64,000 nt of DNA. It comes from Streptomyces sp. SCSIO 30461 (GTDB taxonomy: Bacteria > Actinomycetota > Actinomycetes > Streptomycetales > Streptomycetaceae). Position 1 is the first letter of the stretch; each line of letters opens with the position of its first letter. Shown piece after piece: positions 9,808 to 45,002 of the stretch. A model generated the notes under the pieces. It worked only from the letters and a program-made list of their open reading frames with translations, had not been told where the DNA came from and did no database searches. The position numbers and the translations under genes were made by a program. The DNA lies in assembly GCF_037023745.1 (NCBI RefSeq), contig NZ_CP146101.1:2534001-2598000 (forward strand), written 5' to 3'.

Positions 9808-9871
9808 CAGGGGTACCTCTCTGGGCGGGTCGGGCGGAGCAGCGGCATCGTGGCTGCCGGGTCGGGCGCGG

Positions 9872-10052
9872 CTTAGGGTGTGTTGCGAAAGTAGCTCCGT
9901 CCGCCCGCAGGGCGGGGCCTGCGGCGTCTGGTGCGTGCGATCGCAAGGCGGAGGATCATCCTCGTACTGGACGTACTTGGATGACTCCGGCAACGCAGCG
10001 AGCGTGCGTGCCAGGCGTCGCGCGCCCGCCGGGGATTACGGGACAGCCCTTA
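9872..10052. repeat. MITE-like Streptomyces intergenic element between the M6 and M7 PKS genes
   Basis: About 181 bp. The left end reads CTTAGGGTGTGTTG and the right end, reverse complemented, reads CTAAGGGCTGTCCC: imperfect terminal inverted repeats. The interior, read on the minus strand, carries AGTACGTCCAGTACGAGGA and then ATCCTCCGCC. A related sequence occurs at 62132-62292. The right end overlaps the TAA stop codon of the upstream PKS gene (10050-10052), so the repeat supplies or abuts the stop. It contains no convincing gene of its own and fills most of the 242-bp gap between PKS genes that are otherwise tightly packed. Confidence 0.7.
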
Positions 10053-13000
10053 GGTCGCATCGCGTAGTGCCAGCTCGATCAGCGCGTCCGCGTCGAGTTC
10101 GTCAAGGGCGGTGATGTCGTCGAGGCGGTCGAGTTCGTCGAGGGCGGCGGCGTGGCCGAGGTCGTCCATCCCGACGACGGCGCCGGTCCGGTCCGCCCCG
10201 TTGAACCCGCCGTGAGGTGTGCGCCCATCGGGCGCCGCCATGCCGGGCTCCGTGGACGCCAGGGCGAGCAGCGTGTCCAGCAGACCCGCCTCGCGCAGCA
10301 CGCTCAACGGCAGCGTGGCCAGGGCGGTCCTGACCCGCCGCTCATCGGGGGTGCCGCTGCCCCCTGCGGCGGTTTCGGCGGCAGGGTGCAGGAGTTCGGT
10401 CAGATGGTTGGCCACGGCGGCGGCCGTCGGGTGGTCGAAGACCAGGGTGGGAGGCAGCTTGCGGCCGCAGACACGGCTGAGCCGGATCGCCAGCTCGCTC
10501 GCGATCAGGGAGCTGAATCCGAGGTTCCTGAAGGGCTCTTCGGGGTCGACGTCGTCGGGTGCGGAATGGCCGAGCACGGCCGCGACGCTGCCGCGCACCT
10601 CGTCGAGCACGATCTCGTACTGTTCGGCGGGGTCGACGGCAGCGAGCCGGGCGGGCAGCAGCCCGTCTGCCTCCGCTCCGGCAGACTCCCCACCGGTCGC
10701 CGTGGCGGACCCGTCCGCGCCGGACTCGCGTACACCGGGCAGGTCGCGGATCAGGGAGCTGGGCCGGAACGTCGTGAACCCCTTGGCGAAGAGCGGCCAG
10801 TCCATGTCGGCGAGTGTGACGCAGCCGTCGTCGCGGTCCAGGGCCCGGCTCAGGGCCGCCACGGCCCGTACGGGGTCCATGGGGCGCAGACCGCGGCTGC
10901 TGAGGAACTCCTCACCTGCGCCCTCGCCCATGCCGCCGCCGCCCCACAGGCCCCAGGCGATGGAGGTGGCGGGCAGGCCGTCGGCCCGGCGCTGCTCGGC
11001 GAGCGCGTCGAGTGCGGCGTTCGCGGCGCCGTAGGCACTCTGGCCACCGCTGCCCCACACGCCCGCGCCGGAGGCGTACAGGACGAAGGCGTCCAGATCC
11101 AGGCCCCGCTCGCGCGTGAGTTCGTGCAGGTGCAGGGCGCCGGCGACCTTGCCCCCGTACACCTCGGCGAGCGAGCCGCCGTCGGTGTCGAGGAAGGCGG
11201 CCGAGTGCGGCACGCCCGCGGTGTGGAAGACGGCGGTGGGTGGGTGGGCTTCGAGTAGGGCGGCGATGGCGTCGCGGTCGGAGACGTCGCAGGCGGCGAT
11301 GGTGACTTCGGTGCCGAGGGCGTGTAGTTCGCGGGTCAGTTCGGTGGTGCCGGGTGCGTTGGGGCCGCGGCGGCTGGTCAGTACGAGGTGTGTGGCGCCG
11401 GTTCTGGCGAGCCATCGGGCGACGTGGGCGCCGAGGGCGCCGGTGCCGCCGGTGACCAGGACGGTGCCACGGGGCGTGTAGGTACGGCGGGTTGGGGTCC
11501 CGCCGGCCGGGACGAGTCGGCGGCCGTAGCTGCCGGAGGCGCGGATGGCGATCTGGTCCTCGTCCGCCGTGCCCGCCAGGGCGGCGGCCAGCCGCTGCCA
11601 GGTGCGCTCGTCGGGGGTCCCGGGCAGGTCGACCAGGCCGCCCCAGAGAGTGGGGTGCTCCAGAGCGATACCGCGTCCGAGTCCCCAGACCTGGGCGCCT
11701 TCGGAACCGGGCCGTTCGCCGGGGGAGACGGCGACGGCACCGCGGGTGACGGTCCAGAGCTTCGCGGTGAGGCCGGCGTCGGCTGCCGCCTGCGCGAGGA
11801 CGGTGGTGCCGAGCACGCCGAGGGCCAGTTCGGGGTGCTCGGGGTGCGAGCGCCCATCGGTACCGAGGAGGGAGAGGATGCCGTCAAGGGGTTCGGTTGG
11901 GTTGCCGGTGTTGTGTGTGGTGAGTTGTGCGGTGAGGGTGTGGCGGTTGGTGTTGTGTGGGTTGAGGGTGAGGGTTTCGGTGTGGGCGCCGTGGCGGGTG
12001 AGGGTGGCTTGGGCGGCGGCGATGAGCTCGGTCTCGGAACCGGTGAGGGTTTCGGGGATGACGAGGAGCCAGCGGCCTTTGAGTGTGGGGGTTTGGGTGT
12101 GGTGGAGGTGTTTCCAGGTGGTGCGGTAGCGCCAGGTGTCGGTGGGGTGGGTGGTGGTGTTGGTGGGGGTGGTTGGTTGATGCCAGTAGTGCTGGTGTTG
12201 GAAGGGGTAGGTGGGGAGGTTGATGGTTTGGGGGTTGGTGTGGTGGAAGAGGTTGGTCCAGTTGATGTTGGTGCCGTGGGTGAAGAGGTGGGCGGCTGAG
12301 GTGAGGAGGCGTTGGAGTCCGCCTTCGTTGCGGCGGAGTGTGCCGGTGGTGGTGATGTGGTGGGGGGTGGTGTCGGTGGTTTCGTGGATGCCGGTGGTGA
12401 GGACGGGGTGGGCGCTGGTTTCGATGTAGGTGGTGTGTCCGTTGTCGAGGAGGAGTCGGATGGTTTCTTCGAAGCGGACGGTTTGGCGGAGGTTTTGGTA
12501 CCAGTAGTCGGGGGTGAGTGTGGTGGTGTCGGTGATGTGGGTGGCGTGGACGGTGGAGTAGAAGGGGGTGTGGGAGGGGCGGGGTTTGATGGGGGTGAGT
12601 GCGTCGAGGAGTTGGTTTTTGATGTGTTGGACGTGGGTGGAGTGGGAGGGGTAGTCGACGGGGATGTGGCGGGCTCGGATGTTCTGGTTCTGGTAGGTGG
12701 TGATGGTGTGGGTGATGGCTTCGTTGTCGCCGGCGATGATGGTGCTGTTGGGTCCGTTGGTGGCGGCGATGGTGATGCGTTGGTGGTAGGGGGTGGTGGT
12801 GAGGTGTTGCTGGATGGTGTGGGGTGGGAGGGGGATGGAGGCCATGGTGCCGTGGCCGGTGAGGTGGTGGGTGATGAGTTTGGCGCGGAGGGCGATGATG
12901 CGGGCGGCGTCGTTGAGGGTGAGTGCGCCGCAGACGGTGGCGGCGGCTATTTCGCCTTGGGAGTGGCCGATGACGGCGTCGGGGGTGATGCCGAGGTGGT

Positions 13001-14882
13001 GCCAGAGTTCGGCGAGGGAGACCATGACGGCCCAGGTGATGGGTTGGACGATGTCGGCGCGGTCCAGGGGTGCGTGGGTGCGGAGGGTCTCGGTGGGGTC
13101 GTAGTCGATGTGGGGGGCGAGTGCGTTGGCGCATTCGTGGAATCGGTCGGCGAAGACGGGGCTGGTGTCGAGGAGTTCGGCGGCCATGCCGGTCCATTGG
13201 GTTCCCTGTCCGGGGAACACCAGCACCGTGCGGCCCGGAGTGCCCGCTGTGCCTTCGATGGTGGTGGTGCCGAGGGTGACGCGGCGGTGTTCGAACATCG
13301 AGCGGGTGGTTGCCAGTGAGTAGGCGATGTCGAGGGGGCGTGGTTCCCTGCCGTGGTCGCGCTCGCGTTCCAGGTGGTTCCGCAGCCGCTCGCTCTGAGC
13401 CCTGAGCGCGGGTTTGGAGCGGGCGGTGACGATCTGGGGGATGACGGGTAGCTCGCGGGTGGGTGCCTCGTCCTCGGCGGGTTCGGCCGCCTGGGGTGCT
13501 GGGGCCTGTTCGAGGATGACGTGGGCGTTGGTGCCGCTGACGCCGAAGGAGGACACGCCGGCGCGGCGTGGGCGTCCGGTGTCGGGCCAGGTGCGGGGTT
13601 CGGTGAGCAGCTCGACTTGGCCGGTGTTCCAGTCCACCTGCGAGGAGGGGGTGTCGATGTGCAGGGTCTTGGGGAGCAGGCCGTTCTGTATCGCCATCAC
13701 CATTTTGATGACTCCGCCGACACCTGCGGCGGCTTGGGCGTGTCCGATGTTCGACTTCAACGAACCCAACCACAAAGGCCGTTCGGTGGTGTGAGCACTG
13801 CCGTACGTGTCGATCAACGCGTGCACTTCGATGGGGTCGCCGAGTCGGGTGCCGGTGCCGTGGGCTTCGACGGCGTCCACGTCGGCGGCGGTGACCCGGG
13901 CGTCGGCGAGTGCCTGTCGGATGACGCGCTGCTGGGCGGCGCCGTTGGGGGCGGTGAGTCCGTTGCTGGCGCCGTCCTGGTTCACCGCCGAGCCGCGGAT
14001 GACGGCGAGTACGCGGTGTCCCTTGCGGACGGCGTCGGAGAGCCGCTCCACCAGGAGGATGCCGACACCTTCGCCGGGGCCGAACCCGTCGGCGGCCTCG
14101 GCGAAGGCCTTGCAGCGGCCGTCGGCGGCCACGCCGCGCTGGCGGGAGAACTGGACGAAGACGGCGGGTGTGGACATGACGGTGGCACCGCCTGCCAGGG
14201 CGAGGTCGCACTCACCCGCGCGCAGGGCCTGGGCCGCCTGATGGAGTGCCACCAGGGAGGACGAGCAGGCCGTGTCCACGGTGACAGCGGGTCCTTCGAG
14301 CCCGAGCGTGTAGGAGATGCGGCCCGAAGTGAAGCTGACCACACCGCCGGTGAGCAGGTCGCCCTCCAACTCCGCGGAGGGGTCGCGCACCCCGGAGGTG
14401 TACCCGCCGTCCCAGGCGCCGACGAACACGCCGGTGCGGGAGCCCTTCAGCGAGCGGGGATCGACGCCGGCCCGTTCCAGGGCCTCCCAGGAAATCTCCA
14501 GCAGCAGCCGCTGCTGCGGGTCCATCGCCACCGCCTCGCGCGGCGAGATCCCGAAGAAGGCCGGGTCGAAGGCTCCTGCGGCCTGCAGAAAGCCGCCCTC
14601 ACGGCAGTACGAGCGGCCTGCCGCGCCCGGGTCCGGGTCGTAGAGCCCCTCGACGTCCCAACCGCGGTCGCCCGGGAAGGGCGAGATCGCGTCGACGCCG
14701 TCGGACAGGAGTTCCCACAGGTCCTCGGGGGAGTCGACGCCGCCGGGAAAGCGGCAGGCCATGCCGACGATCGCGATCGGCTCGTTGGCGCGTGCCTCCA
14801 ACTCCTTCAGGCGCTCGCTGGTGCGGTGCAGTTCGGTCGTGGCCCGCTTCAGGTATTCGCGGAGCTTCTCTTCGTTCGCCAT
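10050..14882 (-). CDS. type I PKS, module 6 (KS-AT-KR-ACP), TylGIV-like
   Basis: Predicted 1610-aa PKS protein adding one methylmalonyl-type unit with ketoreduction. Domains in order: docking helix ([23 protein letters not shown]), KS (Cys206 in DTACSSS), AT (about 547-895, Ser641 in GHSQGEI), KR ([11 protein letters not shown] near 1137, YGAANA active-site region), ACP (Ser1458 in GFSSL rather than the usual GFDSL) and a C-terminal acidic docking tail. GHSQGE indicates a methylmalonyl-type AT; the usual YASH motif appears as YPSH. The KR lacks LDD and has GVWG, so A-type is likely. The AT is one of five copies of the homogenised 1047-bp block. ATG 14882 lies 29 bp after the upstream PKS stop. 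The TAA stop lies in a MITE-like repeat. Module content equals TylGIV. Confidence 0.95.
12198..13244 (-). repeat. homogenised AT block, copy in module 6
   Basis: One of five nearly identical 1047-bp blocks, from [15 protein letters not shown] to NLPTYPFQ of the AT domain. In 12661-12720 the plus strand has 30 G and only 6 C, so the coding strand is extremely C-rich; the protein is unusually rich in Thr, His, Asn and Ile. Distinguishing sites noticed: C at the ...GTTCTGG... position near 12686 and CGGTCGGCG near 13150. Confidence 0.95.
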
Positions 14883-14911
14883 GTCTCGTCACCCGTCACG
14901 TGCTGTGCGGT

Positions 14912-17900
14912 TCAGAACCGCTCGTCGATGAATGCGAAGATCTCGTCGTCCTCGGCGTCCTCGATGGACGCGGCCACCGATTCCCCCTCCGAGTCCGCGA
15001 GATGTGTGCCGCCGGATCCGCTGCCGATACCGCCCCACAGGCCGGCGAGGGCCGTGAGCCGGTTGGCGATCTCCTTGTGTGCCGTCTCGTCGGTGACGGC
15101 ACTGTCGGCGGCTTGTCCGGCGAGGGTGCCGAACAAGGCCTCCAGACGGTCGAGTTCCGCCATGACGGAGGTCCCACGAGCGTCCGGGGCCGCCGGAGCG
15201 GCCGCGGCCCCCTCCGCCGCCAGTTCGCGGCGCAGGTGCGCGGCGAGTGCCTCCGGCGTCGGGTGGTCGAAGACCAGGGTGGCCGCCAGACGCAGTCCTG
15301 TGGCCGCGGCCAGCCTGTTGCGCATTTCGACGGCGGTGAGGGAGTCGAATCCGAGTTCCTTGAACGCCCGGTCGACGACGATGCTCTCCGGCCCGCCGTG
15401 GTTGAGCACGGCCGCGGCGTGGGTCCGTACGGCCTCCAGGACGACTTCCGCCTGGCCCTCGGCGGACAGGCCGGCGAGCCGGTCGGCGAGGGTCTCGGCG
15501 GGACCTTCCTGAGCGCGCCGCCCGGACCGGGTGTCCGCGCCGTCGACCAGCGAGCTGAGGAAGGCGGGGACCGGGCCCGCGGCGCGCAGAGCCGCGTGGT
15601 TGAGCCGGATCGGGACCAGCAGGGGGTTGTCGACGGTCTGCGCGGAGTCGAAGAGCGCGAGCCCTTCGGCGTCGGTGAGCGGCATGATGCCGCCGCGTGC
15701 GAGCCGGCGGTGCATTCCGCTCTGGTCGAGATGCTCGGCCATGCGGCTGCTGCTGGACCACAGGCCCCACGCGAGGGATACGGCGGGCAGGCCGAGGGAG
15801 CGGCGGTAGCCGGCGAAGGCGTCGAGGAAGGCGTTGGCCGCCGCGTAGCCACCCTGGCCGGGACTGCCGAAGAGGGCGGAGGAGGACGAGTACATGATGA
15901 AGGCGGACAGATCGAGGTCGCGGGTGAGGTCGTGCAGGTTGAGCACGGCGTCGACCTTGGGGTGCAGAGCGGTGTCCAGGACCTCGGGGGTGAGCGTGGG
16001 GAGCGTGCCGTCGGCGAGCACGCCGGCGGTGTGGACCACGCCGGTCAGCGGCTGGTCCCGCGGGATGGCGGCGAGGAGCGCGGCGAGCTGTTCGCGGTCG
16101 CCCGCGTCGCAGGCCCGTACGGCGACCTCGGCGCCCAGAGCGGTCAGCTCGGCGGCCAGTTCGGGGGCGCCATCGGCCTCCAGGCCCTGGCGGCCGGCGA
16201 GTACGAGATGGCGTACGCCGTGCTCGGCGACCAGGTGGCGGGCCACAGCGCTGCCGAGGGTGCCGGTGCCGCCGGTGACCAGCACGGTGCCGTACGGCCC
16301 GAACGACGGTGGCAGGGTGAGGACGAGCTTGCCGGTGTGACGTGCCTGGCTGAGGGCGCGGAAGGCCTCACGGGCGTGCCGGATCTCGTAGGTCGTCATC
16401 GGCAGCGACACGAGGACTCCCGCCTCGAAGAGCGCGAGCAGTTCGCGCAGCATCTCACCGACGGTCTCCGGCCCGGCCTGCACCAGGTCGAAGGCCTGGT
16501 AGACGGTGCCCGGGTGGTCGGCGGCGATCCGCCGCGGGTCGCGTACGTCGGCCTTGCCGAGCTCCAGGAAGTGGCCGCCCCTGGGGAGCAGCCGCAGGCC
16601 GGCGTCGACGAACTCACCGGCGAGGGAGTTGAGGACGATGTCCACGCCGTCGCCACCGGTCTCCGTGAGGAACGCGTCGGCGAAGCCCAGGGTGCGGGAG
16701 TCGGAGATCGCCTCGTCGCCCAGGCCGAGGTGGCGCAGGGTGTCCCACTTGCCGGTGCTGGCCGTGGCATACACGGTCAGCCCGTGGTGGCGGGCCAGTT
16801 GGAGGGCTGCCATGCCCACGCCGCCCGCGGCGGCGTGCACGAGCACGCTCTGGCCGGGTTCGGCCTTGGCCAGGCGGGTCAGGGCGTACTGGGCGGTGAG
16901 GAACACAGCCGGTACGGAGGCCGCTTCCGCGTAGGTCCAGCCGGTGGGGATCGGGGCGACCATGCGGTGGTCGGCGATCGCGTAGGGGCCGAATCCTCCG
17001 GTCCACATGCCGAGGACACGGTCGCCGGGGGCGAGTCCGGTCACACCGGGCCCGACCTCGGTGACGACGCCCGCGCCTTCGGCGCCCATGACCGCCGCGT
17101 CGCCGGGGTACATGCCGAGAGCGATGAGGGTGTCGCGGAAGTTGAGGCCGGCGGCACGCACGGAAACGCGTACCTGCCCTTCCAGCAGTTCGCCCAGGGC
17201 GTCGGGCGCAGCGGCGAGGCGCAGGCCCTCCATGGTGCCGGTGCCGCTCGTGGCGAGCCGCCAGGAGGTGCTCTCGGCGGGCGGCAGGAGGACGTCGCCG
17301 CGGGCGCCGTCGGCGCCCGTCCGGACGAGCCGGGGGACGCGGACGGCGCTGCCGCGGACGGCTGCCTGGGGTTCGCCGCAGGCGAGGGCGGCGGTCAGGG
17401 CGGTGACGTTGACGGAGTCCGTGTCCACGTCGAGCAGAGCGAAGCGGCCGGGCTCTTCGGACTGGGCGGAGCGGACCAGGCCCCAGAGGGTGGCCGCGGC
17501 CGGGTCGCCGGGCTCGTCGTCGCCGCCCGCGGCGACGGCTCCGCGGGTCACCAGCACGAGCGTGGTGCCGGAGAGGGCGCTGCCGTGCTCCAGCCATGCC
17601 TGGGCGAGGTCCAGGGCCCGGTGGGCCGTGGTGTGCGCGGACCGCGCGTCGGGGCAGGGAAGGTGGGGGAAGGACACGACGACGGTGTCGGGTGCCTGTC
17701 CGACGGATACGGCCTCGAACAGCGCCTCCAGGTCGGGGTACCACTCGCCGGCGTTGCCGGTGGCCTCCAGCGCGGTGGCGATCTTGGCATGGTCCTCGCC
17801 GACGACGGCGATCCGGCGTACGGGCAGGGCCTGGGTGACGGGCAGCTGCTGCCAGTCGACCTCGTACAGGGAGCCGTTGCGCTTGCTGCCGCCCGCTGGG

Positions 17901-20900
17901 CCGGCGGTGAGCTGTTCGTCGGAGACGGTCCTCACTACGAGCTCGTCGACGGCGAGGACGGGCCGGCCCGTGTCGTCGGTGCACAGCAGGCGTACGGCCT
18001 CGGCGCCGGCGGGGGAGATGCTGACGCGCAGCCGGGCGACACCCTCGGCGTACAGGCGGACACCGCGGACGGCGAACGGCATGCGGGCCGTGCCGTCCTC
18101 GGGGAAGAACGAGCCGAGGCTCATGGCCTGCAGAGCGGCGTCGAGGAGCGCGGGGTGGAGCCCGAAGCCGGCGGTGGTCTCGTCGGCGTGCTGGGGGAGT
18201 GCCACCTCGGCGTGGACGGTGGTGCCCTCGGTCCAACCGGCGCGGAAGCCCCGGAAAAGCGGGCCGTAGTCGTAGCCGCGCCCGGTGAACTGCTCGTAGA
18301 AGGACTCGGGGTCGGTGCCGGTGGCGGGTTGGGCCGCCGCCGGGGGCCACGCCCCATCAGCCGAGGCGGGTGCGGCAGGAGCCGGCCCGCCGTCGACGGA
18401 GGCGACGACGGCCTCCGCATGGCGGCGCCACGGGGAGCCCGGGTCCACTCCGGCCTCGCGGGAGTGGACCGTGAGGGTGCGCTTGCCTGCCTCGTCGGCG
18501 GCGGTGACGAGCAGGCTGAGTTCTATGGCGCCGTTGTCGGGGAGGACCACGGGTGCCTGCAGGATCAGCTCGTCGAGACGGTCGCAGCCGTGCTGGCGGC
18601 CGGCCCATAGGGCGAGGTCCATGAGGGCGGCGCCGGGCAGCAGGGCCGTGCCCATGAGGGCATGGTCGGCCAGCCACGGCTGGGTGTCCGAACCGAGCCG
18701 GGCGGTGTAGACCACCGAGCCGGACTCGGGGAGTTCGACCCCCCCGCCGAGCAGCGGGTGGCCGGCCTCGCGGATGCCGATGCCGGCGGCATCGCCGCGG
18801 CGAGCGGGGGCGTGGTACCAGTAACGCTCGCGCTGGAAGGGGTAGGTGGGCAGGTCGACATGGCGGGAGTCGGTACCGAACAGGGCATCGGCATCGATCT
18901 CGACCCCGCTGATGTGGGCCATTCCGAGCGCGGCGCCGAACCAGCGGGCGCCGCCCTTCTCCCGGCGCAGGGTGCCGAGCACGGCGGCCCGGCCGCAGGC
19001 GTCGGCGACGGTCTCCTGCAGGGAGGTGGCGAGCATGGGGTGCGGGCTGGGCTCCAGGAAGACCTCGTAGCCGTCGGCGATCAGGGAGCGGGTGGCCTGC
19101 TCGAACTCGACGGGCTCGCGCATGTTGCGGTACCAGTACGCGCTGTCGAGGGCGGCGGTGTCGAGGAGCCCGCCGGTGACCGTGGAGTAGAAGGGGATCT
19201 GCCCGGTGCGCGGGGACACCGGCGCCAGCACCTCCATGAGGTGGTCCCTGAGGGCGTCGACCTGGGCGGAGTGCCCGGCGGTGTCGACGCCGGGGATGGC
19301 GCGGGCATGGATACCTTCGGCCGTGAGCTCCTCCAGGAGCTCACGGAGGGCTTCGGGATCACCTGCGACTGCGGCGGTGCCGGGGCTGTTGACGGCGGCG
19401 ACGGACAGCCGGTCGCCGAACCGCTCCAGGCGGGGCCGGATCTCCTCGGCGGGCAGGGAGACGGCGAGCATGCCGCCCTTGCCGGCCAGCGTCAGCCATG
19501 CCTGGCTGCGCAGGGCCACGATGCGGGCGGCGTCGTCGAGGGAGAGGCCGCCGGAGACGCAGGCGGCGGCGATCTCACCCTGGGAGTGGCCGACGACGGC
19601 GTCGGGGTGGACCCCGATGGCCCGCCAGGCCTCGGCCAAGGACACCATCATCGTGAACAGCACGGGCTGGACCACGTCGACGCGGCTGAGGGCCGGCGCG
19701 CCGGGCACCTGCCGCAGCACATCCATGACGGACCAGTCGAGGTACGAGCGCAGAGCGGTGTCGCAGGCCTGCGCGGACTCGCGGAAGGCCGGCGAGCGGT
19801 CGAGCAGCCCTTCGGCCATGGCGGGCCACTGGGACCCCTGGCCGGGGAAGACGAACGCGATGCGGTCGCTCGGCCCGGCGGTGCCGCGGAGCACGGCCAG
19901 GTGCGGCCGGTCCTGGGCGAGGGAGTTGAGGGCGTCGAGCAGCTCCTCGCGGCTCTCGCCGATGACGGCGGCCCGGTGCTCGAAGCGGGAGCGGGCCGTC
20001 ATCAGGGTGTAGCCGGCATCGGCGGGGTGCATACCGGGATGCTCGACGAGCCCCGCGCGCAGCCGGGCGGCCTGGGCGCGCAGCGCCGACTCGGAGCGGG
20101 CCGAGAACAGCAGCGGGACGGTGACCTCTTCCCACCAGTTGGTGTCCTCGACGCCGCCCTGACCGCCGTCGTCGGCGGTGCCGGCCGTGCTGTCGGGGCG
20201 CGGTGCCTCCTCCACGATGACGTGGGCGTTCGTACCGCTGATACCGAAGGCGGAGACTGCGGCGCGGCGCAGGGTTGCCCGCTCGGGCCAGGGCACGTCG
20301 TCGGTGAGCAGGGACACGGCTCCGGCGCTCCAGTCGACCCGCGGGGTCGGCTCGTCCACATGAAGGGTCCGGGGCAGGGTGTTGCCGCGCAGCGCGAGGA
20401 CCATCTTGATGACGCCGGCGACGCCGGCGGCGGCCTGGGTGTGGCCGATGTTGGACTTGACCGATCCGAGCCACAGTGGATCGCCGGCCGGGCGCGCGTC
20501 GCCGTAGGTGGCCAGGACGGCCTGCGCCTCGATGGGGTCGCCGAGTTCGGTGCCGGTGCCGTGTGCCTCGACTGCGTCGATGTCCTCCGGGCGCAGTCCG
20601 GCATCGGCCAGGGCCTGTCGGATGACGCGTTGCTGGGATGGGCCGTTGGGGGCGGTGAGTCCGTTGCTGGCACCGTCCTGGTTGACGGCGGAGCCGCGGA
20701 TGACGGCGAGCACGGGGTGTCCGTTGCGTTCGGCATCGGACAGGCGCTCGACGAGCAGCATGCCGGCACCCTCACCGAGGGCGACCCCGTCGGCCCCGGC
20801 CGCGAAGGCCCGGGAGCGCCCGGAAGGTGACATGACGCGCTGGCGGGAGAACTCGACCAGCATTTCCGGGGTGGACATGACGGTGGCGCCACCGACCAGG

Positions 20901-26032: not shown

Positions 26033-26063
26033 AGCTCTCCCCTGGAGGTGTCGGTGCCGGGCT

Positions 26064-31925: not shown

Positions 31926-34900
31926 AGCTGCTCCTCGATGAAGGCGAAAAGTGCGTCGTCGTCGGCGAGTTCGAGCGCCGGCTCGGGGGTGGCGGGCAGA
32001 GTCCCGCCCAGGGCGGAGACCAGGGCGGCGAGCCGCCGGTGGACGATCTCGCGCCGGATGTCGTCTTCGGAGAGCCCGGCCACGGCCGCTTCCAGGGCTT
32101 CCAGTCCGGCAAGGGCGGCTTCGCCCGCTTCCCGGCCGCCGCCGGCGGCGGCGTTCAGCTCATCGCCGATGTGCTCGGCGATGGCCTGGGCGGTGGGGTG
32201 GTCGAAGACGACGGAGGCGGCCAGGCGCAGGCCCGTGACGGCGTTGAGCCGGTTGCGGAGCTCGACCGCGGTCAACGAGTCGAAGCCGATCTCGCGGAAG
32301 GCGCGTGTCGGTTCGACCGCTTCGGGCCCGGCGAAGCCGAGTACGGAGGCCACCTCGGCCCGGACCACGGCCAGCAACTGCCGACCGCGCGCGGCGGCGT
32401 CGAGCGGGGCCAGACGCTGTGTCAGGGTCTGCGCGTCGCGTTCGTCGGAGCGGGTGGCGATGCCGCCGGTCGCGGCCCGCGGGGTGGCGGGGGCCGGGAC
32501 CAGGGCACGCAGCAGGGCGGGAACCGCGTCGGGGCCGTTGGCGGCCTGCTCGCGGCGCAGCGCCGGGGTGTCCAGGCGTAGGGGTACGAGCAAAGCGTCG
32601 CCCCGGTCCGCGATGCCACGGTCGAAGAGGGCGAGCCCTTGGTCGTTGCTCATGGGCGCGATGCCGGAGCGCCGCATGCGGTGCAGGTCGGTGGCCGCGA
32701 GGTGCCCTGTCATGCCGCTGGCCTCGCCCCACAGACCCCAGGCCAGGGAGACGGCGGGCAGCCCGATGGCGCGGCGGTGCTGGGCCAGGGCGTCCAGGAA
32801 GGTGTTGGCGGCGGCGTAGTTGGCCTGGCCGGGACGGCCCAGGATCCCGGCGGCACCCGAGAACAGCACAAACGCGGACAGCGGGAGGCCGCGGGTCAGC
32901 TCGTGCAGATGCAGGGCAGCGTCGGCCTTGGGCCGCAGTACGGCGTCCAGCCGCTCGGCGTCGAGGGCGGTGAGCGCTCCGTCGTCGAGCACACCGGCCG
33001 CGTGGATCACGGCGGTCAGCGGGTGCGCGGGGTCGATGCCGGCCAGCAGGGCCGCGAGCGCGGAGCGGTCGGCCGTGTCGCAGGCGACGATCTCGACGTA
33101 CGCGCCGAGCGCGGTCAGTTCCCCTTCCAGTTCGCCGGCCCCGGTGGCGTTCCGGCCGCTGCGGCTGACCAGCAGCAGTCGGCGGGCTCCGTAGGCGGTG
33201 ACGAGGTGGCGGACGAGCAGTCGGCCGAGAGTGCCGGTCGCCCCCGTGACCAGCACGGTCCCCTCAGGGGCGCACATGCTTCCCGTCACGCCGGTTGCGG
33301 TCTCGGCGGCCCTCGCGGGGGCGAGGGCCGGGGTGAGCACCTTGCCTGCCCGCAGGGCGAGTTGGGGCTGGCCGGTGGCCAGGGCCGAGGGGAGCGCGCG
33401 CGCCGAGGCGGGCGTGCCGTCGGTGTCGACGAGCACGAACCGGCCCGGGTGCTCGGTCTGGGCGGAGCGTACGAGTCCCCAGAGCCCGGCGCCCGCCATC
33501 CCGGCCGCGGTGTCGTCCGCAACGGCGGCGAGAGCCTGCCCGGTCAGCACGGTCAGCGGGACCGTCGCGAGGGGACCGTCATGGCCGAGCCAGTCCTGCA
33601 TCAGGGCAAGACCCCGTGAGGCGAGGTCATGTACGTCCTCGGGCCTGGCACCCGGGTCGGCCGGGAAGGGCACGACCACCGCGTCCGGTACGGCGGCGCC
33701 CGCGGTCACGGCGGCGCGCAGGGCCGCCGCGTCCGCGTACACCCCGACCTCGGCACAGCCCGCCGCGGCGAGGCCGAAGTCGTCGGCGCCGAGCACCGCC
33801 AGCCGGGTCGGTGGTGTGGTCGCCGGGCTCCCGGCGGGCCGTTCCCAAGCGACGCGATAGAGGGGAAGGTCGGTGCCGGCGGCGGAGAGCAGGGCGTCCA
33901 GGCCGTCCTGCGCCAGGGGCCGCATGACGAGGGCGTCCAGAGTGAGGACGGGTGCCGCGGTGAGGTCCGTGGCCTCCAGACGCACCGCGCCTTCGCCGGC
34001 CGGGCTGAGGCGTACGCGCAGCGCGTCCGCGCCCGCCGCGTGGAGGGTGATGCCCTGCCATGCGAACGGCAGCAGCACGGAGCCGTCCGGAACATCGAGT
34101 AGCCCGCCGGCCAGCCAGGGCTGCAGGGCCGCGTCGAGCAGCGCGGGGTGCACGCCGTAGCCGCCGGCGTCCGCCTGGGCCCGGGCGGGCAACCGGATCT
34201 GGGCGAAGACCTCGCCGTCGCCACGCCAGAGGGCCTCGATACCGGCGAAGACCTCGCCGTACTCATAGCCGAGGTCCGAGAACTGCCCGTAGACGTCGAC
34301 CGGTTCGATGCGCTCGGCTCCGGCGGGTGGCCATGCGGCGGCCCCGGCCCAGTCGGCGGCCACGGGCGCGGCGGCGGGAGCGGGCACGACGACACTCTCA
34401 CCGTGCCGGATCCACGCGGCCTCTTCGGCACCGGCGGCGCCCTCGGGACGGGAGTGGAAGGTCAGCCGTCGGCGGCCCTGCCCGTCGGCGGCATCCACTC
34501 GCACCTGGATCTGAGCGGCGTGTCGGCCGTCGAGGACGAGAGGGGCCTCCAGGGACAGTTCCTCCACGGTCGCGCAGCCGGTCGCGGCGGCGGCGTGCAG
34601 GGCGAGTTCGACGAAGGCCGTGCCGGGCAGCAGGGTCCGACCGCGGACGGCGTGGTCGGCGATCCACGGGTGATCGGTGAGCGAGATCCGCCCGGCGAAC
34701 ACCGTCTCGCCGGTCGATGCGACCGCCAGGGCACCGCCGAGCAGCGGGTGGTCCTCCCACACCATGCCGAAGCGGGCGGCCGCGGCGTCGCCGACGCCCG
34801 CGGGCGAGGTCGGTGCCCAGTAGTGCTGGTGTTGGAAGGGGTAGGTGGGGAGGTTGATGGTTTGGGGGTTGGTGTGGTGGAAGAGGTTGGTCCAGTTGAT

Positions 34901-37900
34901 GTTGGTGCCGTGGGTGAAGAGGTGGGCGGCTGAGGTGAGGAGGCGTTGGAGTCCGCCTTCGTTGCGGCGGAGTGTGCCGGTGGTGGTGATGTGGTGGGGG
35001 GTGGTGTCGGTGGTTTCGTGGATGCCGGTGGTGAGGACGGGGTGGGCGCTGGTTTCGATGTAGGTGGTGTGTCCGTTGTCGAGGAGGAGTCGGATGGTTT
35101 CTTCGAAGCGGACGGTTTGGCGGAGGTTTTGGTACCAGTAGTCGGGGGTGAGTGTGGTGGTGTCGGTGATGTGGGTGGCGTGGACGGTGGAGTAGAAGGG
35201 GGTGTGGGAGGGGCGGGGTTTGATGGGGGTGAGTGCGTCGAGGAGTTGGTTTTTGATGTGTTGGACGTGGGTGGAGTGGGAGGGGTAGTCGACGGGGATG
35301 TGGCGGGCTCGGATGTTTTGGTTCTGGTAGGTGGTGATGGTGTGGGTGATGGCTTCGTTGTCGCCGGCGATGATGGTGCTGTTGGGTCCGTTGGTGGCGG
35401 CGATGGTGATGCGTTGGTGGTAGGGGGTGGTGGTGAGGTGTTGCTGGATGGTGTGGGGTGGGAGGGGGATGGAGGCCATGGTGCCGTGGCCGGTGAGGTG
35501 GTGGGTGATGAGTTTGGCGCGGAGGGCGATGATGCGGGCGGCGTCGTTGAGGGTGAGTGCGCCGCAGACGGTGGCGGCGGCTATTTCGCCTTGGGAGTGG
35601 CCGATGACGGCGTCGGGGGTGATGCCGAGGTGGTGCCAGAGTTCGGCGAGGGAGACCATGACGGCCCAGGTGATGGGTTGGACGATGTCGGCGCGGTCCA
35701 GGGGTGCGTGGGTGCGGAGGGTCTCGGTGGGGTCGTAGTCGATGTGGGGGGCGAGTGCGTTGGCGCATTCGTGGAATCGGTTGGCGAAGACGGGGCTGGT
35801 GTCGAGGAGTTCGGCGGCCATGCCGGTCCATTGGGTTCCCTGTCCGGGGAACACCAGCACCGTGCGGCCCGGCGTGCCTGCTGTGCCTTCGATGGTGGTG
35901 GTGCCGAGGGTGACGCGGCGGTGTTCGAACATCGGGCGGGTGGTTGCCAGTGAGTAGGCGATGTCGAGGGGGCGTGGTTCCCTGCCGTGGTCGCGCTCGC
36001 GTTCCAGGTGGTTCCGCAGCCGCTCGCTCTGAGCCCTGAGCGCGGCGGCCGACTTGGCGGTCACCACGAGTGGGACGACCGGCAGTTCGCTGCCCGCGGG
36101 CTCCGTTGCCGACTCCCGTACGGGCGGTTCTTCGAGGATGACGTGGGCGTTGGTGCCGCTGACGCCGAACGCGGACACGCCGGCGCGGCGTGGGCGTCCG
36201 GTGTCGGGCCAGGTGCGGGGTTCGGTGAGCAGCTCGACTTGGCCGGTGTTCCAGTCCACCTGCGAGGAGGGGGTGTCGATGTGCAGGGTCTTGGGGAGCA
36301 GGCCGTTCTGTATCGCCATCACCATTTTGATGACTCCGCCGACACCTGCGGCGGCTTGGGCGTGTCCGATGTTCGACTTCAGCGAACCCAGCCACAGGGG
36401 TGTGCCTGCGGGGCGTTGGCCGTAGGTGGCCAGGAGGGCTTGGGCTTCGATGGGGTCGCCGAGTCGGGTGCCGGTGCCGTGGGCTTCGACGGCGTCCACG
36501 TCGGTGGTGTCCAGTCCGGCATTCGTGAGGGCGGCACGGATGACGCGCTCCTGTGCTGGCCCGTTGGGGGCAGCCAGTCCGTTGCTCGCACCGTCCTGGT
36601 TGACGGCGTCGCCACGGATCACCGCAAGCACGCGGTGCCCCCTGCGTACGGCGTCCGAGAGCCGCTCGACGGCCACCATGCCCGCGCCCTCGGCCCAGCT
36701 GGTGCCGTCGGCCGCGTCGGCGAATGCCTTGCAGCGGCCGTCGGCCGCGAGGCCGCGCTGGCGGGAGAACTCCACGAACAGGCCGGGGGCGGCCATGACG
36801 GTGACGCCGCCCGCCAGGGCGAGGTCGCACTCACCCGCGCGCAGGGCCTGGGCCGCCAGGTGGAGCGCCACCAGGGAGGACGAGCAGGCCGTGTCCACGG
36901 AGATGGCCGGGCCTTCGAGCCCGAGCGCGTAGGAGATGCGGCCGGAGACCACACTCGCGGACTTCCCGGTGAGCAGGTAGCCCTCGTGCTCCTCGGAGGC
37001 CTCGTGCAGGCGGGACGCGTACTCCTGGTGGGTGAGGCCCGCGTACACACCTGTGCGGGAGCCGCGCAGGGTCAGCGGGTCGATGCCGGCGCGTTCCAGG
37101 GCCTCCCAGGAGGTCTCCAGCAGCAGCCGCTGCTGCGGGTCCATCGCCACCGCCTCGCGCGGCGAGATCCCGAAGAACTCCGCGTCAAAACCACCGGCCT
37201 CGTGCAGGAAGCCACCCTCGCGGACGTATGTCGTGCCGCGTCGACCCGAATCCGGGTCGGGGTCGTAGACCTCGTCGAGGTTCCAGCCGCGGTCGACGGG
37301 CGCGGCGCCGATGACGTCGCGCTCGTCCATGACCAGGTCCCATAGAGCCTCGGGAGTGTCAGCCTCACCGGGGAAGCGGCAGGCCATGCCCACGATCACG
37401 ACGGGGTCGTCGGCGTCGGCAGGGCGGACGGTGGCGGCGGATACCTCGGGAGCCCCGGCCGGGGTGCCGCCGAGGAGTTCGCCGAGCAGGTACGCGGCGA
37501 GTACGCCCGGGTTGGGACGGTCGAACACCACGGTGGCGGGCAGGCGCAGGCCGGTGGCGTCGGCGAGGCGGTTGCGCAGCTCCAGCGCGGTGAGGGAGTC
37601 GAAGCCGGCGTCCTTGAACGCCCGATCGGCGCGGACGGCGTCCGTGCTCGCGTGCCGCAGCACCGCCGCGGCCTCGCCGCGGACCAGCTCGACCAGAACC
37701 CGGGTCCGCTCGGCTTCGGGTAGCCCGGCGAGCCGCTGCCCGAGTCCCTCGGGCGAGCCGGCAGCTGCTCCGGCGAGGGCCTGCTGCCGCGCCTCCTCCA
37801 GGGCGCGACGGGCCTCGGGAACGCTGTCGAAGGCCGGCCCGGGACGCAGCGCGCCGGTGTGCGCCGCGAAGCCGGCCCAGTCGACGTCCACGACGGTCAC

Positions 37901-40900
37901 GCAGGTGTCGCCGAGATCGAGGGCCCGGTGCAGGGCCTCGATGCCCTCGTCGGGGTCCATGGCCCGGATGCCGCGACGGCCGAGGCTCTCCTCACCTGCG
38001 CCCACGGCCATGCCGCCGCCGCCCCACAGGCCCCAGGCGACGGAGGTGGCGGGCAGGCCGTCGGCCCGGCGCTGCTCGGCGAGCGCGTCGAGTGCGGCGT
38101 TCGCGGCGGCGTAGGCGGCTTGGCCGCCGTTGCCCCAGGTGCCGGTGACGGAGGAGAACAGGACGAAGGCGTCCAGATCCAGGCCCCGCTCGCGCGTGAG
38201 CTCGTGCAGGTGCTGCGCCGCTTCGGCTTTCGGGGCCCGCACCCCGCGGAAGGCCTCGGCAGTGACGGAGTCGATCACCCCGTCGTCGAGCACGCCTGCG
38301 GTGTGGAAGACGGCGGTGGGTGGGTGGGCTTCGAGTAGGGCGGCGATGGCGTCGCGGTCGGAGACGTCGCAGGCGGCGATGGTGACTTCGGTGCCGAGGG
38401 CGTGTAGTTCGCGGGTCAGTTCGGTGGTGCCGGGTGCGTTGGGGCCGCGGCGGCTGGTCAGTACGAGGTGTGTGGCGCCGGTTCTGGCGAGCCATCGGGC
38501 GACGTGGGCGCCGAGGGCGCCGGTGCCGCCGGTGACCAGGACGGTGCCACGGGCGGTCCAGCGCGGGTCATCGGACGCCTGGGCCGGCCGGCCGGCGCGG
38601 GTCACCCGGCGGCCGTGGCTGCCGGAGGTGCGGACGGCGATCTGGTCCTCGGCGCCGGGGCGGCCGCCTTGGGCGAGAGCGGCCGCCATCCGGTCGAAGG
38701 CGCGGGCGTCGGGCTGCTCGGGCAGGTCGACGACCCCGCCCCAGAGGGCGGGCAGTTCGAGCGCGGCGACCCGGGCGAAGGCCCACACCTGGGCCCCGGA
38801 GTCCTCGGGCAGTTCTCCGGGCGTGACCGCCACCGCCTGCCGGGTCAGGGCCCATAGGCGGGCTTCGGTGCCGGCGTCGGCGGCGGCTTGGGTGAGGGTG
38901 AGGGTGCTGGCGAGGCCGAGTGGGACGGTTGGGTGGTCGGGGTGTGTGCCTTGGGTGAGGGCGAGGAGGGAGAGGATGCCGGTGAGTGGTTCGGTTTCTG
39001 GGCGGTCGGTGGTTTCGGCGAGTCGGGCTCTTAGCAGGGATCGGTCGGCTGCGGCCGGGTTCACGATGAGTGGTTCGACGGTGGCGCCGTGGTCGCGCAG
39101 GGTTTGTTGGGCGAGTTGGGCGAGTTGGGTGGTTTCGGTGTTGGTGAGGGTTTCGGGGATGACGAGGAGCCAGCGGCCTTTGAGTGTGGGGGTTTGGGTG
39201 TGGTGGAGGTGTTTCCAGGTGGTGCGGTAGCGCCAGGTGTCGGTGGGGTGGGTGGTGGTGTTGGTGGGGGTGGTTGGTTGATGCCAGTAGTGCTGGTGTT
39301 GGAAGGGGTAGGTGGGGAGGTTGATGGTTTGGGGGTTGGTGTGGTGGAAGAGGTTGGTCCAGTTGATGTTGGTGCCGTGGGTGAAGAGGTGGGCGGCTGA
39401 GGTGAGGAGGCGTTGGAGTCCGCCTTCGTTGCGGCGGAGTGTGCCGGTGGTGGTGATGTGGTGGGGGGTGGTGTCGGTGGTTTCGTGGATGCCGGTGGTG
39501 AGGACGGGGTGGGCGCTGGTTTCGATGTAGGTGGTGTGTCCGTTGTCGAGGAGGAGTCGGATGGTTTCTTCGAAGCGGACGGTTTGGCGGAGGTTTTGGT
39601 ACCAGTAGTCGGGGGTGAGTGTGGTGGTGTCGGTGATGTGGGTGGCGTGGACGGTGGAGTAGAAGGGGGTGTGGGAGGGGCGGGGTTTGATGGGGGTGAG
39701 TGCGTCGAGGAGTTGGTTTTTGATGTGTTGGACGTGGGTGGAGTGGGAGGGGTAGTCGACGGGGATGTGGCGGGCTCGGATGTTCTGGTTCTGGTAGGTG
39801 GTGATGGTGTGGGTGATGGCTTCGTTGTCGCCGGCGATGATGGTGCTGTTGGGTCCGTTGGTGGCGGCGATGGTGATGCGTTGGTGGTAGGGGGTGGTGG
39901 TGAGGTGTTGCTGGATGGTGTGGGGTGGGAGGGGGATGGAGGCCATGGTGCCGTGGCCGGTGAGGTGGTGGGTGATGAGTTTGGCGCGGAGGGCGATGAT
40001 GCGGGCGGCGTCGTTGAGGGTGAGTGCGCCGCAGACGGTGGCGGCGGCTATTTCGCCTTGGGAGTGGCCGATGACGGCGTCGGGGGTGATGCCGAGGTGG
40101 TGCCAGAGTTCGGCGAGGGAGACCATGACGGCCCAGGTGATGGGTTGGACGATGTCGGCGCGGTCCAGGGGTGCGTGGGTGCGGAGGATCTCGGTGGGGT
40201 CGTAGTCGATGTGGGGGGCGAGTGCGTTGGCGCATTCGTGGAATCGGTCGGCGAAGACGGGGCTGGTGTCGAGGAGTTCGGCGGCCATGCCGGTCCATTG
40301 GGTTCCCTGTCCGGGGAACACCAGCACCGTGCGGCCCGGAGTGCCCGCCACACCGTGGATGGCGGAGCGTTCCAGCCGGGTCAGGAATTCCTCGCGGTCG
40401 CTCGCCACGACCACCGCGCGGTGGTCGAAGACGGTACGGGCGGATGCCTGGGTCCACGCGATGTCCAGGAGCCGGTGCTCCGGGCTGTGCTCGACCCGGG
40501 CACTGAGCCGGGCGGCCTGTTCACGCAGGGCCTCCGCGGTGCGGGCGGTGACGACGACGGGCAGGACCGGCAGGCTGTGGGTGGCGGGTTCGGCCGCCTG
40601 GGGTGCTGGGGCCTGTTCGAGGATGACGTGGGCGTTGGTGCCGCTGACGCCGAAGGAGGACACGCCGGCGCGGCGTGGGCGTCCGGTGTCGGGCCAGGTG
40701 CGGGGTTCGGTGAGCAGCTCGACTTGGCCGGTGTTCCAGTCCACCTGCGAGGAGGGGGTGTCGATGTGCAGGGTCTTGGGGAGCAGGCCGTTCTGTATCG
40801 CCATCACCATTTTGATGACTCCGCCGACACCTGCGGCGGCTTGGGCGTGTCCGATGTTCGACTTCAGCGAACCCAGCCACAGGGGTGTGCCTGCGGGGCG

Positions 40901-43900
40901 TTGGCCGTAGGTGGCCAGGAGGGCTTGGGCTTCGATGGGGTCGCCGAGTCGGGTGCCGGTGCCGTGGGCTTCGACGGCGTCCACGTCGGTGGTGTCCAGT
41001 CCGGCATTCGTGAGGGCGGCACGGATGACGCGTTGCTGGGATGGGCCGTTGGGGGCGGTGAGTCCGTTGCTGGCGCCGTCCTGGTTCACCGCCGAACCGC
41101 GGATGACGGCGAGCACGCGGTGTCCCTTGCGGACGGCGTCGGAGAGTCGTTCGACCAGCAGTACGCCCGCGCCCTCGGCCCAGCCGGTGCCGTCGGCGCC
41201 TTCCGCGAACGCCTTGCACCGTCCGTCAGTGGCCAGACCCCGCTGCTGCGAGAACTCCACGAACATGCCAGGGCTCGCCATGACGGTGACGCCGCCCGCC
41301 AGGGCGAGGTCGCACTCACCCGCGCGCAGGGCCTGGGCCGCCTGATGGAGCGCCACCAGGGAGGACGAGCAGGCCGTGTCCACGGTGACAGCGGGTCCTT
41401 CGAGCCCGAGCGTGTAGGAGATGCGGCCTGACATGACGCTGGCTGTGCTTCCGGTGAGCAGATAGCCCTCGTAGCCCTGGGCGTCCTCGTACAGCCGCGG
41501 GCCGTACTCCTGCGTCATGGCGCCGACGAACACGCCGGTGCGGGAGCCCTTCAGGGAGAGGGGATCGATGCCGGCGCGTTCCAGGGCCTCCCAGGAAGTC
41601 TCCAGCAGCAGCCGCTGCTGCGGGTCCATCGCCACCGCCTCGCGCGGCGAGATCCCGAAGAACTCCGCGTCGAACTCGCCCGCCTCGTGCAGGAAGCCGC
41701 CCTCACGCACATAGGAGTGCCCCGGAACACCCGGCTCGGGATCGAACAGGGACTCCACGTCCCAACCGCGGTCGGTCGGGAACGGCGACACCGCGTCCGC
41801 ACCCGAGGACACCAACTCCCACAACGCCTCCGGCGAACCGACCCCACCAGGGAAACGGCACGCCATCCCCACGATCGCGACGGCGTCGTCCTGGTCGAAG
41901 TCCGGTTGCTCGCGACGGACCTCGGCCGCGGGCAGCGAGGCCGGAGCATCGGCGGCGGCCGTGTCGCGGATCAGGTGGGCGACGGCCAGGGGGGTCGGGC
42001 AGTCGTAGATCAGGCTCGTGGGCAGATTCAGGCCGGTCACGGCCCGCAGCCGGTTGCGCAGCTCGATGCCGGTCACGGACTCGAAGCCCTGCTGCTTGAA
42101 GGACTTCTCGGGCTGAATCGATTCGCCGGTTGCCCGGCCGCGCACGTCGGCGGCGTGGATGAGCACCAGTTCCAGCACATGCTTGAGCTGGTCGTCCGCG
42201 GAGCGGCCGCGCAGCTCGCGTATGAGCAGGCTCTCGGTGGGTTCGGCCGGGGCCGGGAGGTTCCGCTCCTCGCTCCCATCCGGGGTGAGCCAGTGGCGGG
42301 TTCGTTGGAAGGGGTAGGTGGGGAGGTTGATGGTTTGGGGGTTGGTGTGGTGGAAGAGGTTGGTCCAGTTGATGTTGGTGCCGTGGGTGAAGAGGTGGGC
42401 GGCTGAGGTGAGGAGGCGTTGGAGTCCGCCTTCGTTGCGGCGGAGTGTGCCGGTGGTGGTGATGTGGTGGGGGGTGGTGTCGGTGGTTTCGTGGATGCCG
42501 GTGGTGAGGACGGGGTGGGCGCTGGTTTCGATGTAGGTGGTGTGTCCGTTGTCGAGGAGGAGTCGGATGGTTTCTTCGAAGCGGACGGTTTGGCGGAGGT
42601 TTTGGTACCAGTAGTCGGGGGTGAGTGTGGTGGTGTCGGTGATGTGGGTGGCGTGGACGGTGGAGTAGAAGGGGGTGTGGGAGGGGCGGGGTTTGATGGG
42701 GGTGAGTGCGTCGAGAAGTTGGTTTTTGATGTGTTGGACGTGGGTGGAGTGGGAGGGGTAGTCGACGGGGATGTGGCGGGCTCGGATGTTTTGGTTCTGG
42801 TAGGTGGTGATGGTGTGGGTGATGGCTTCGTTGTCGCCGGCGATGATGGTGCTGTTGGGTCCGTTGGTGGCGGCGATGGTGATGCGTTGGTGGTAGGGGG
42901 TGGTGGTGAGGTGTTGCTGGATGGTGTGGGGTGGGAGGGGGATGGAGGCCATGGTGCCGTGGCCGGTGAGGTGGTGGGTGATGAGTTTGGCGCGGAGGGC
43001 GATGATGCGGGCGGCGTCGTTGAGGGTGAGTGCGCCGCAGACGGTGGCGGCGGCTATTTCGCCTTGGGAGTGGCCGATGACGGCGTCGGGGGTGATGCCG
43101 AGGTGGTGCCAGAGTTCGGCGAGGGAGACCATGACGGCCCAGGTGATGGGTTGGACGATGTCGGCGCGGTCCAGGGGTGCGTGGGTGCGGAGGATCTCGG
43201 TGGGGTCGTAGTCGATGTGGGGGGCGAGTGCGTTGGCGCATTCGTGGAATCGGTCGGCGAAGACGGGGCTGGTGTCGAGGAGTTCGGCGGCCATGCCGGT
43301 CCATTGGGTTCCCTGTCCGGGGAACACCAGCACCGTGCGGCCCGGAGTGCCCGCCACACCGTGGATGGCGGAGCGTTCCAGCCGGGTCAGGAATTCCTCG
43401 CGGTCGCTCGCCACGACCACCGCGCGGTGGTCGAAGACGGTACGGGCGGATGCCTGGGTCCACGCGATGTCCAGGAGCCGGTGCTCCGGGCTGTGCTCGA
43501 CCCGGGCACTGAGCCGGGCGGCCTGTTCACGCAGGGCCTCCGCGGTGCGGGCGGTGACGACGACGGGCAGGACCGGCAGGCTGTGGGTGGCGGGCTCGAC
43601 CGCCTGGGGTGCTGGGGCCTGTTCGATGATGACGTGGGCGTTGGTGCCACCCATGCCGAAGGAGGACACGCCCGCCCGGCGCGGCGGGTTGCCGTCAGCC
43701 TCGCCCCCCTGCCAGGGCCGCAGCTCGGTCTGGACGCTGAGGTTCAGCGCGTCGAGCGGGATGTCGGGATGGGGAGTGGCGTAGTTGAGGCTGGGCGGGA
43801 GCTCGCCCTCACGGACGGCGAGCGCCGCCTTGAGGAGGCCGACGATGCCCGCGGCGCCCTCGAGGTGGCCGATGTTGGTCTTGACGGAACCGACGGAGAG

Positions 43901-44875: not shown

Positions 44876-45002
44876 TAATTCTCCATAGCCAGAGATGAGG
44901 TGCGGAAAATCCACAAGCATTTCGAAGGGGCGGAAGGCCTCTCGGGCCCGTCCGGTCGTACCGGCCCGAAGGGCCGGGGGGAGCAAGGCTGCCAGGGCTC
45001 CG

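Follow-up and report, generated by a model that had tools for sequence, protein, structure and literature searches.

How do five domains of a single assembly line come to share one DNA sequence almost letter for letter? The question is raised by a modular polyketide synthase (PKS) of Streptomyces sp. SCSIO 30461, encoded within a stretch of 64,000 nucleotides (positions 2,534,001 to 2,598,000 of a single-contig genome of 8,047,498 bp; hereafter the window, to whose positions all unqualified coordinates refer). A sequence-only reading of this stretch had noticed that the acyltransferase (AT) domains of the loading module and of modules M1, M2, M4 and M6 are nearly identical, and had attributed this to recent gene conversion. 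We arrive at an explanation to which, as a whole, we assign a probability of about 0.8: the five ATs are copies of one genetic repeat of intense nucleotide skew (GRINS) that are kept alike by gene conversion and were recoded in place, with a sign of skew that is linked to the direction of replication.

Five copies of one skewed repeat

All five blocks lie on the minus strand at the positions first noted, in the loading module (KSQ-AT-ACP; 42305-43351), M1 (39299-40345), M2 (34832-35878), M4 (23321-24367) and M6 (12198-13244), and each encodes the motif VDYPSH. Ungapped pairwise comparison, which the sequence-only reading had proposed as a check on its estimate of about five variable sites, gave exactly five variable columns over 1047 bp (plus-strand block positions 412, 487, 890, 951 and 1042), two of which alter an amino acid (I/T and D/N). 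Pairs of blocks differ at one to four positions and are thus 99.6-99.9% identical, a divergence of 0.1-0.4% that bears out the view of conversion as recent. Tracts of at least 90% identity are longer than the block, extending over 1126-1748 bp depending on the pair, and their ends vary between pairs. Sites 487 and 890 occur in all four allele combinations among the five copies, which points to partial exchange (or repeated mutation) after homogenisation. Among the 40 of 157 candidates scored in its own genome, the block is present five times; the remaining four matches are short, none of them above 76% identity. When compared with the 37 other fetched PKS loci that have at least two ATs with the motif YASH, some of which are pieces of one cluster, the window was the most uniform of the 38; its worst pair (99.6%) exceeds the best pair found elsewhere (99.1%), so that identity is indeed higher than between other ATs of the same substrate.

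The five near-identical, intensely skewed copies cover the methylmalonyl-type ATs of the PKS and no other AT. The malonyl-type ATs of M3 (28989-30032) and M7 (7000-8058; both with the motif SHAFH) and the ethylmalonyl-type AT of M5 (18839-19876; DTAGH), all on the minus strand, are unlike the blocks at the DNA level and lack intense skew, as the first reading had it for their DNA. Its further statement that homogenisation affects every methylmalonyl-type AT and only these is correct among ATs, but the ketosynthase (KS) domains of M1, M2, M4 and M6 are partly homogenised too, at 80.6-95.5% identity. The highest value, 95.5%, belongs to the KSs of M1 (40613-41884) and M4 (24629-25900), both on the minus strand, which form a second homogenised pair.

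According to the excerpts of PMC10394414 and PMC9899208 at hand, GRINS are repeats of about 1 kb within one PKS that are more than 90% identical and have GC and TA skews above 0.25; they are linked to gene conversion and are commonest in actinobacteria and cis-AT PKSs. In all five blocks, the GC skew of the coding strand is about -0.55 and the TA skew -0.36 to -0.38, with peaks of about -0.70 and -0.50, respectively; neither this skew nor its polarity figured in the sequence-only reading. The entire PKS genes, blocks included, have skews of -0.18 (GC) and -0.11 (TA) and a G+C content of 0.72, compared with about 0.65 in the blocks, while the ATs of M3, M5 and M7, which serve as unskewed controls, range from -0.12 to -0.16 (GC) and from -0.01 to +0.08 (TA). 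The blocks are coding DNA inside the AT domains of three genes of an assembly-line PKS, and each has at least 500 bp of the required similarity (above 80%, often above 90%) to another region of the same PKS. They also carry signs of gene conversion: a violation of the four-gamete rule, and ATs that group by cluster while KSs group by module (see below). Because the blocks fall within the definitions of both papers, we conclude that they are one GRINS in five copies. Every copy contains an antisense open reading frame on the plus strand with a common start, three of them of 335 amino acids (12312-13319, 23435-24442 and 34946-35953) and two longer (39413-41431 and 42419-44254; 672 and 611 amino acids), most likely as a by-product of the skew.

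Concerted evolution and opposite recoding in sister clusters

Judged by domain calls and motifs, the window PKS is a predicted tylactone-type, 16-membered macrolide PKS: a KSQ-AT-ACP loading module is followed by M1 with KR, M2 with DH-KR, M3 (malonyl) with DH-KR, M4 with KR, M5 (ethylmalonyl) with DH-ER-KR, M6 with KR and M7 (malonyl) with KR-TE, which we take to be the module plan of tylactone. When M6 was used as the query, 78 loci were recovered, and these include tylactone-type clusters with collinear DNA in Streptomyces sp. GESEQ-35, S. cirratus and S. werraensis. A fourth sister cluster is located on the 474,642-bp linear plasmid NZ_CP108444.1 of Streptomyces sp. NBC_01276 (genome G038), where the PKS has eight KS-AT pairs (L163-L166, 346-396 kb); the sister loci used were L146-L155 and L163-L165. 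Both complete sisters, GESEQ-35 and NBC_01276, agree with the window in how many KS-AT pairs they have and in how these are ordered.

Identity matrices for ATs and KSs took in the window, GESEQ-35, S. cirratus and S. werraensis, with NBC_01276 outside. Inside a cluster, the methylmalonyl ATs are 85-91% (GESEQ-35), 86-93% (S. cirratus, three ATs) and 90-96% (S. werraensis) identical at the DNA level, while identity is 74-83% between these three clusters and 61-66% between the window and its sisters. The nearest sister AT is the same one, ge_4, for all five window ATs, so that no module signal is left in them. In contrast, the nearest KS outside the cluster comes from the same module for 8/8 window KSs (77-89%), even though KS2 and KS6 are slightly closer to the window's own KS1 (85.1% and 83.8%) than to their counterparts in the same module of other clusters (81.1% and 83.2%). 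KS1 and KS4 of GESEQ-35 are 90.3% alike and G/T-skewed, and those of NBC_01276 are skewed in the same way. In a window/GESEQ-35 alignment, identity is mostly 0.75-0.90 outside the blocks (0.62-0.72 in some linker and KS1/KS4 segments) and 0.57-0.73 within them, save one edge segment at 0.84. This comparison of sequences shows that the copies evolve in concert, by conversion within each cluster, while the KSs keep a module-by-module signal; together with the allele combinations at sites 487 and 890, it upholds the original proposal of gene conversion, for which related tylactone-type clusters had been named as the point of comparison. In GESEQ-35, direct repeats of 94-95% identity with a 168-bp offset lie between the M4 AT and the M5 KS (L147, about 9829-10507).

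Although the sisters resemble the window in their collinear DNA and, in GESEQ-35, S. cirratus and S. werraensis, in the homogenisation of their methylmalonyl ATs, these ATs have in all four the motif YASH and a coding-strand skew that is not negative (GC 0.00 to +0.21, TA +0.13 to +0.37). GC and TA skews are +0.13 to +0.21 and +0.29 to +0.37 in NBC_01276, +0.08 to +0.14 and +0.19 to +0.25 in S. werraensis, +0.01 to +0.08 and +0.18 to +0.28 in S. cirratus, and +0.00 to +0.08 and +0.13 to +0.23 in GESEQ-35, where they locally reach about +0.3 and +0.48. The unskewed ATs of the sisters' own clusters have a negative GC skew (-0.09 to -0.19) and differ from the methylmalonyl ATs in all four. Compared with 17 sister ATs without polarisation, the window has 191 keto-to-amino differences and one in reverse, as against 18 v 23, 19 v 54 and 43 v 48 for the control ATs of M3, M5 and M7. 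We then polarised the changes with an outgroup of 13 ATs, of which five come from M5 and eight are unskewed ATs of the methylmalonyl type, and counted 56 keto-to-amino v 1 amino-to-keto changes in the window lineage (440 sites) and 0 v 26 in the sisters (404 sites); with two alternative outgroups, the window counts were 63 v 0 and 82 v 1, and the sister counts 0 v 27 and 0 v 52. These counts show one-way change in both lineages, with the window and the sisters heading in opposite directions.

The depletion of G and T in the coding strand has recoded the protein as well. The window loading AT contains 57 Thr, 29 His and 16 Asn, versus 15-20, 5-7 and 2-4 in three sister ATs, and a predicted model of the recoded AT (mean pLDDT 91, pTM 0.91) suggests that it would still fold. 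The change from YASH to YPSH (GCC to CCC) is itself of the keto-to-amino type and is found in 5/5 window ATs and 0/17 sister ATs. YPSH occurred in none of 243 AT domains from 120 listed database homologues (205 YASH, 23 not classified); another C/A-type AT, at locus L024, has VPSH. A more distant modular PKS on a contig of S. zagrosensis (L156-L158) has, unlike the sisters, five C/A-skewed YASH ATs (GC -0.38 to -0.47).

Recoding in place is the origin of this skew that we prefer. An alternative is a single import of a methylmalonyl AT of the C/A type from a foreign source, which was then copied to all five positions and brought its skew along; we regard this as unlikely, though it is the most credible of the rival explanations. 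In its favor, the best DNA matches of the block are ATs of other PKSs (up to 77%, versus the lower values to the sisters given above), which are skewed like the window where measured. That search covered 392 genomes of the genus, the source genome of the window included, with two candidates scored per genome, so that weaker relatives such as the NBC_01276 cluster can be missed. A quick AT protein tree likewise speaks against recoding in place, as it places the window ATs among C/A-type ATs from other PKSs (97*) rather than with the sisters. However, composition confounds this tree, and DNA similarity among C/A-type ATs is expected from composition alone. The top ATs among those compared by BLASTP are the sister tylactone ATs (55-59%), and over the 110 N-terminal residues, which are the least skewed, sister ATs are 67-72% identical to the window AT versus 53-65% for the C/A types; outside the sister group, the ATs P0009 and P0012 reach 68-69% over the same residues. 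Moreover, a clade of the window plus its sisters was not rejected in an approximately unbiased (AU) test (p 0.37).

Skew sign and replication direction

We related the sign of the skew to the direction of replication across the genus, using dnaA, which was located in 76/76 genomes searched, as the landmark. The polarity table has 47 rows with one AT per locus, drawn from 16 of the 29 CA-query loci, all 30 GT-query loci and the window; the 13 CA-query loci left out are on draft contigs, and L024 was counted though its AT reads oddly past the motif. The row for the window was filled in manually. Among the 17 ATs with negative skew, 16 are head-on to replication and one is co-directional, while 28 of the 30 with positive skew are co-directional and two head-on (44/47 fitting; Fisher p 1.6e-9). 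The relation held when both skews had to be at least 0.15 (32/33 fitting, 13 v 1 and 19 v 0; p 2e-8) and when near-copies were collapsed to 39 rows in groups set by hand from the KS tree (p 3e-7). Eleven genomes hold ATs of both signs, and 10/11 fit. Inside the ATs, the median GC skew is +0.22 for co-directional and -0.41 for head-on copies. By contrast, the medians for the flanking DNA (500-1300 bp from the ATs) differ little between the two directions, at +0.04 v +0.01 upstream and +0.07 v +0.01 downstream. Statistically, these data show that in genomes of this genus the skew sign tracks the direction of replication, with G+T enriched on the leading strand.

The window PKS itself is head-on, that is, transcribed towards oriC, because its contig wraps at oriC and a segment near the cluster keeps its orientation. 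The last 17 kb of the contig match DNA about 0.14 Mb or nearer to dnaA in 12/12 genomes. Nine of the 12 match the 3.7-5.4-kb part of a segment that lies about 0.1 Mb away from the cluster, and in all nine this segment has the orientation seen in the window, away from oriC (assessed by eye). Transcription towards oriC predicts a C+A-rich coding strand under this rule, which fits the window.

Several results weigh against this account of the skew. Under the assumption that all chromosomes are circular, the fit drops to 41/47 (p 5e-7). Three of the 47 ATs misfit, and one of them, L017 in genome G058, does so strongly, being co-directional with a GC skew of -0.60; a recent local inversion of its region is conceivable. 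On the AT tree, which is prone to composition effects, polarity changes just twice, and an independent-pairs test has three starred pairs only; the same test on the KS tree has a single one. For the sisters, the whole-AT GC skew is below the GRINS threshold of 0.15 in 3/4 clusters (0.00 to +0.14), and the synteny of GESEQ-35 points both ways: a block in G346 (82-87%) indicates a co-directional cluster, while matches in G031 and G154 (75%) indicate a head-on one. At the other contig end of GESEQ-35, the match is to a gene that is present twice in the genome concerned. Placement by synteny relative to oriC found nothing collinear for the S. cirratus cluster, and for S. werraensis a neighbouring PKS was matched in one genome; we give these placements no weight as evidence. 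In favour of the account, mapping polarity onto the KS tree takes 12 changes, with no more clustering than chance would give (71 of 500 shuffles were as low). As a separate observation, the L017 region (G058:C1, about 7.79 Mb) has PKS matches on both strands.

The skew could instead stem from transcription, or from selection on the protein or on codon use, rather than from replication. The confinement of intense skew to certain coding blocks would suit such an origin, and transcription and replication direction are inseparable inside any single cluster. Nevertheless, we hold it to be distinctly improbable: the coding-strand sign varies among the 47 ATs and is divided by replication direction, including within the genomes that hold both signs. 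In addition, of the 70 changes on the window lineage, 39 are at first, 13 at second and 18 at third codon positions (with an outgroup that included the GESEQ-35 M4 AT, L038_3).

We infer that a one-way flow of mutations, acting on a single strand, recoded the AT in situ and that homologous recombination would have carried each change into all five copies, including the one that turned YASH into YPSH. More tentatively, the flow might come from damage or error-prone synthesis on single-stranded DNA at or behind the fork. On the leading-sense strand, C-to-T and C-to-G changes predominate. Cytosine deamination together with abasic-site bypass would give both, and our guess is that these processes may be involved. 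We would put it at even odds that the same holds for every GRINS, the fork writing the skew, the leading strand turning G+T-rich whichever strand codes, and orientation steering the recoding of the AT. If so, a PKS whose orientation relative to replication is flipped would have its ATs recoded in the opposite direction, and chromosomal orientation would steer the evolution of assembly-line proteins, including a substrate-specificity motif.

Origin of the copies, the locus and known systems

Repeats of more than 1 kb at 99.6% identity are hard for short reads, and polishing with short reads can homogenise copies. The near-identity of the blocks could hence reflect an artefact in which consensus reads were spread over copies that are in reality more diverse. 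Assembly collapse is nonetheless unlikely because the genome is one 8.05-Mb contig and copy-specific variants are resolved at five sites; the flanks also differ among the copies, and weaker homogenisation of the same kind is present in sister clusters from separate assemblies. We therefore give very little credence to an artefact of assembly or polishing. A recent duplication of whole modules without gene conversion is hardly tenable and was rejected since 8/8 KSs keep their nearest relative in the same module despite the partial homogenisation of KS1, KS2, KS4 and KS6, the KS-AT order is that of GESEQ-35 and NBC_01276, and tract ends and allele combinations vary, notwithstanding long similar stretches for M4/M2 and M4/M1 (93-95% over 1.7-2.4 kb) and the closeness of KS1 to KS4, KS2 and KS6.

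The PKS is encoded by five genes on the minus strand (4138-45292). By domain calls, these comprise the loading module, M1 (KS-AT-KR-ACP) and M2 (KS-AT-DH-KR-ACP; 31922-45292), M3 (KS-AT-DH-KR-ACP; 26064-31925), M4 (KS-AT-KR-ACP) with M5 (KS-AT-DH-ER-KR-ACP; 14912-26140), M6 (KS-AT-KR-ACP; 10050-14882) and M7 (KS, AT, KR) with a thioesterase (4138-9993). Upstream of the PKS are deoxysugar genes and a gene for a TlrC-type ABC-F protein; an activator-dependent glycosyltransferase gene is found downstream. A 4'-phosphopantetheinyl transferase gene is found near the cluster at the window edge (91-765, minus strand). We rejected the possibility that this is the tylosin cluster of S. fradiae itself: PDB 2z5l (tylactone synthase, 511 residues), whose source organism is presumably S. 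fradiae, gives a best stretch of 310 residues and 469 bits in total, which is far under identity.

We know of no established account of how GRINS arise. The link between skew sign and replication opens their origin to direct tests, through comparative genomics as well as through strains built in laboratory Streptomyces, and this locus offers a natural contrast, as the corresponding ATs were recoded oppositely in the sister clusters. A further consequence is that AT DNA similarity and tree placement can mirror shared skew rather than descent, which matters for AT phylogeny and also bears on PKS engineering built on homogenised domains. The sequence-only reading took the cluster to tolerate AT exchange; tolerance of a swap in AT specificity does not follow from these data, in which the exchange seen is like for like.

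Both GRINS and the concerted evolution of ATs in PKSs are known. In the text of PMC4256081 that we drew on, Medema et al. (2014) ascribed AT clades specific to a biosynthetic gene cluster to internal recombination, with KSs less affected in some families. The window differs from those PKSs in being a tylactone-type case with nucleotide recoding and a reversal of sign between clusters; the word tylosin has no occurrence in the main text of that paper. For the tylosin PKS of S. fradiae, the excerpted 2017 report (PMC5663706) describes plasmid-driven deletions of modules 4-6, 1-4, 2-6 and loading-6. All the named ends fall within the set L, 1, 2, 4 and 6, which is the set homogenised in the window. 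These deletion ends would fit recombination between such repeats, by an analogy that rests on named module ends rather than junction sequences, from plasmid-driven events in another strain. As for GRINS, originally described in 2021 (PNAS), the term 'leading strand' is absent from the three other papers searched, which spell out the name, and among the literature matches listed there was no report of a relation between skew and replication or of strand asymmetry in polyketide genes; we do not present the replication rule as new. GRINS are described as repeats through which PKS domains are recoded and gene conversion is promoted. The window fits this description, while its copies are more alike (99.6-99.9%) and their polarity, opposite to the shift in the sisters, follows the direction of replication.

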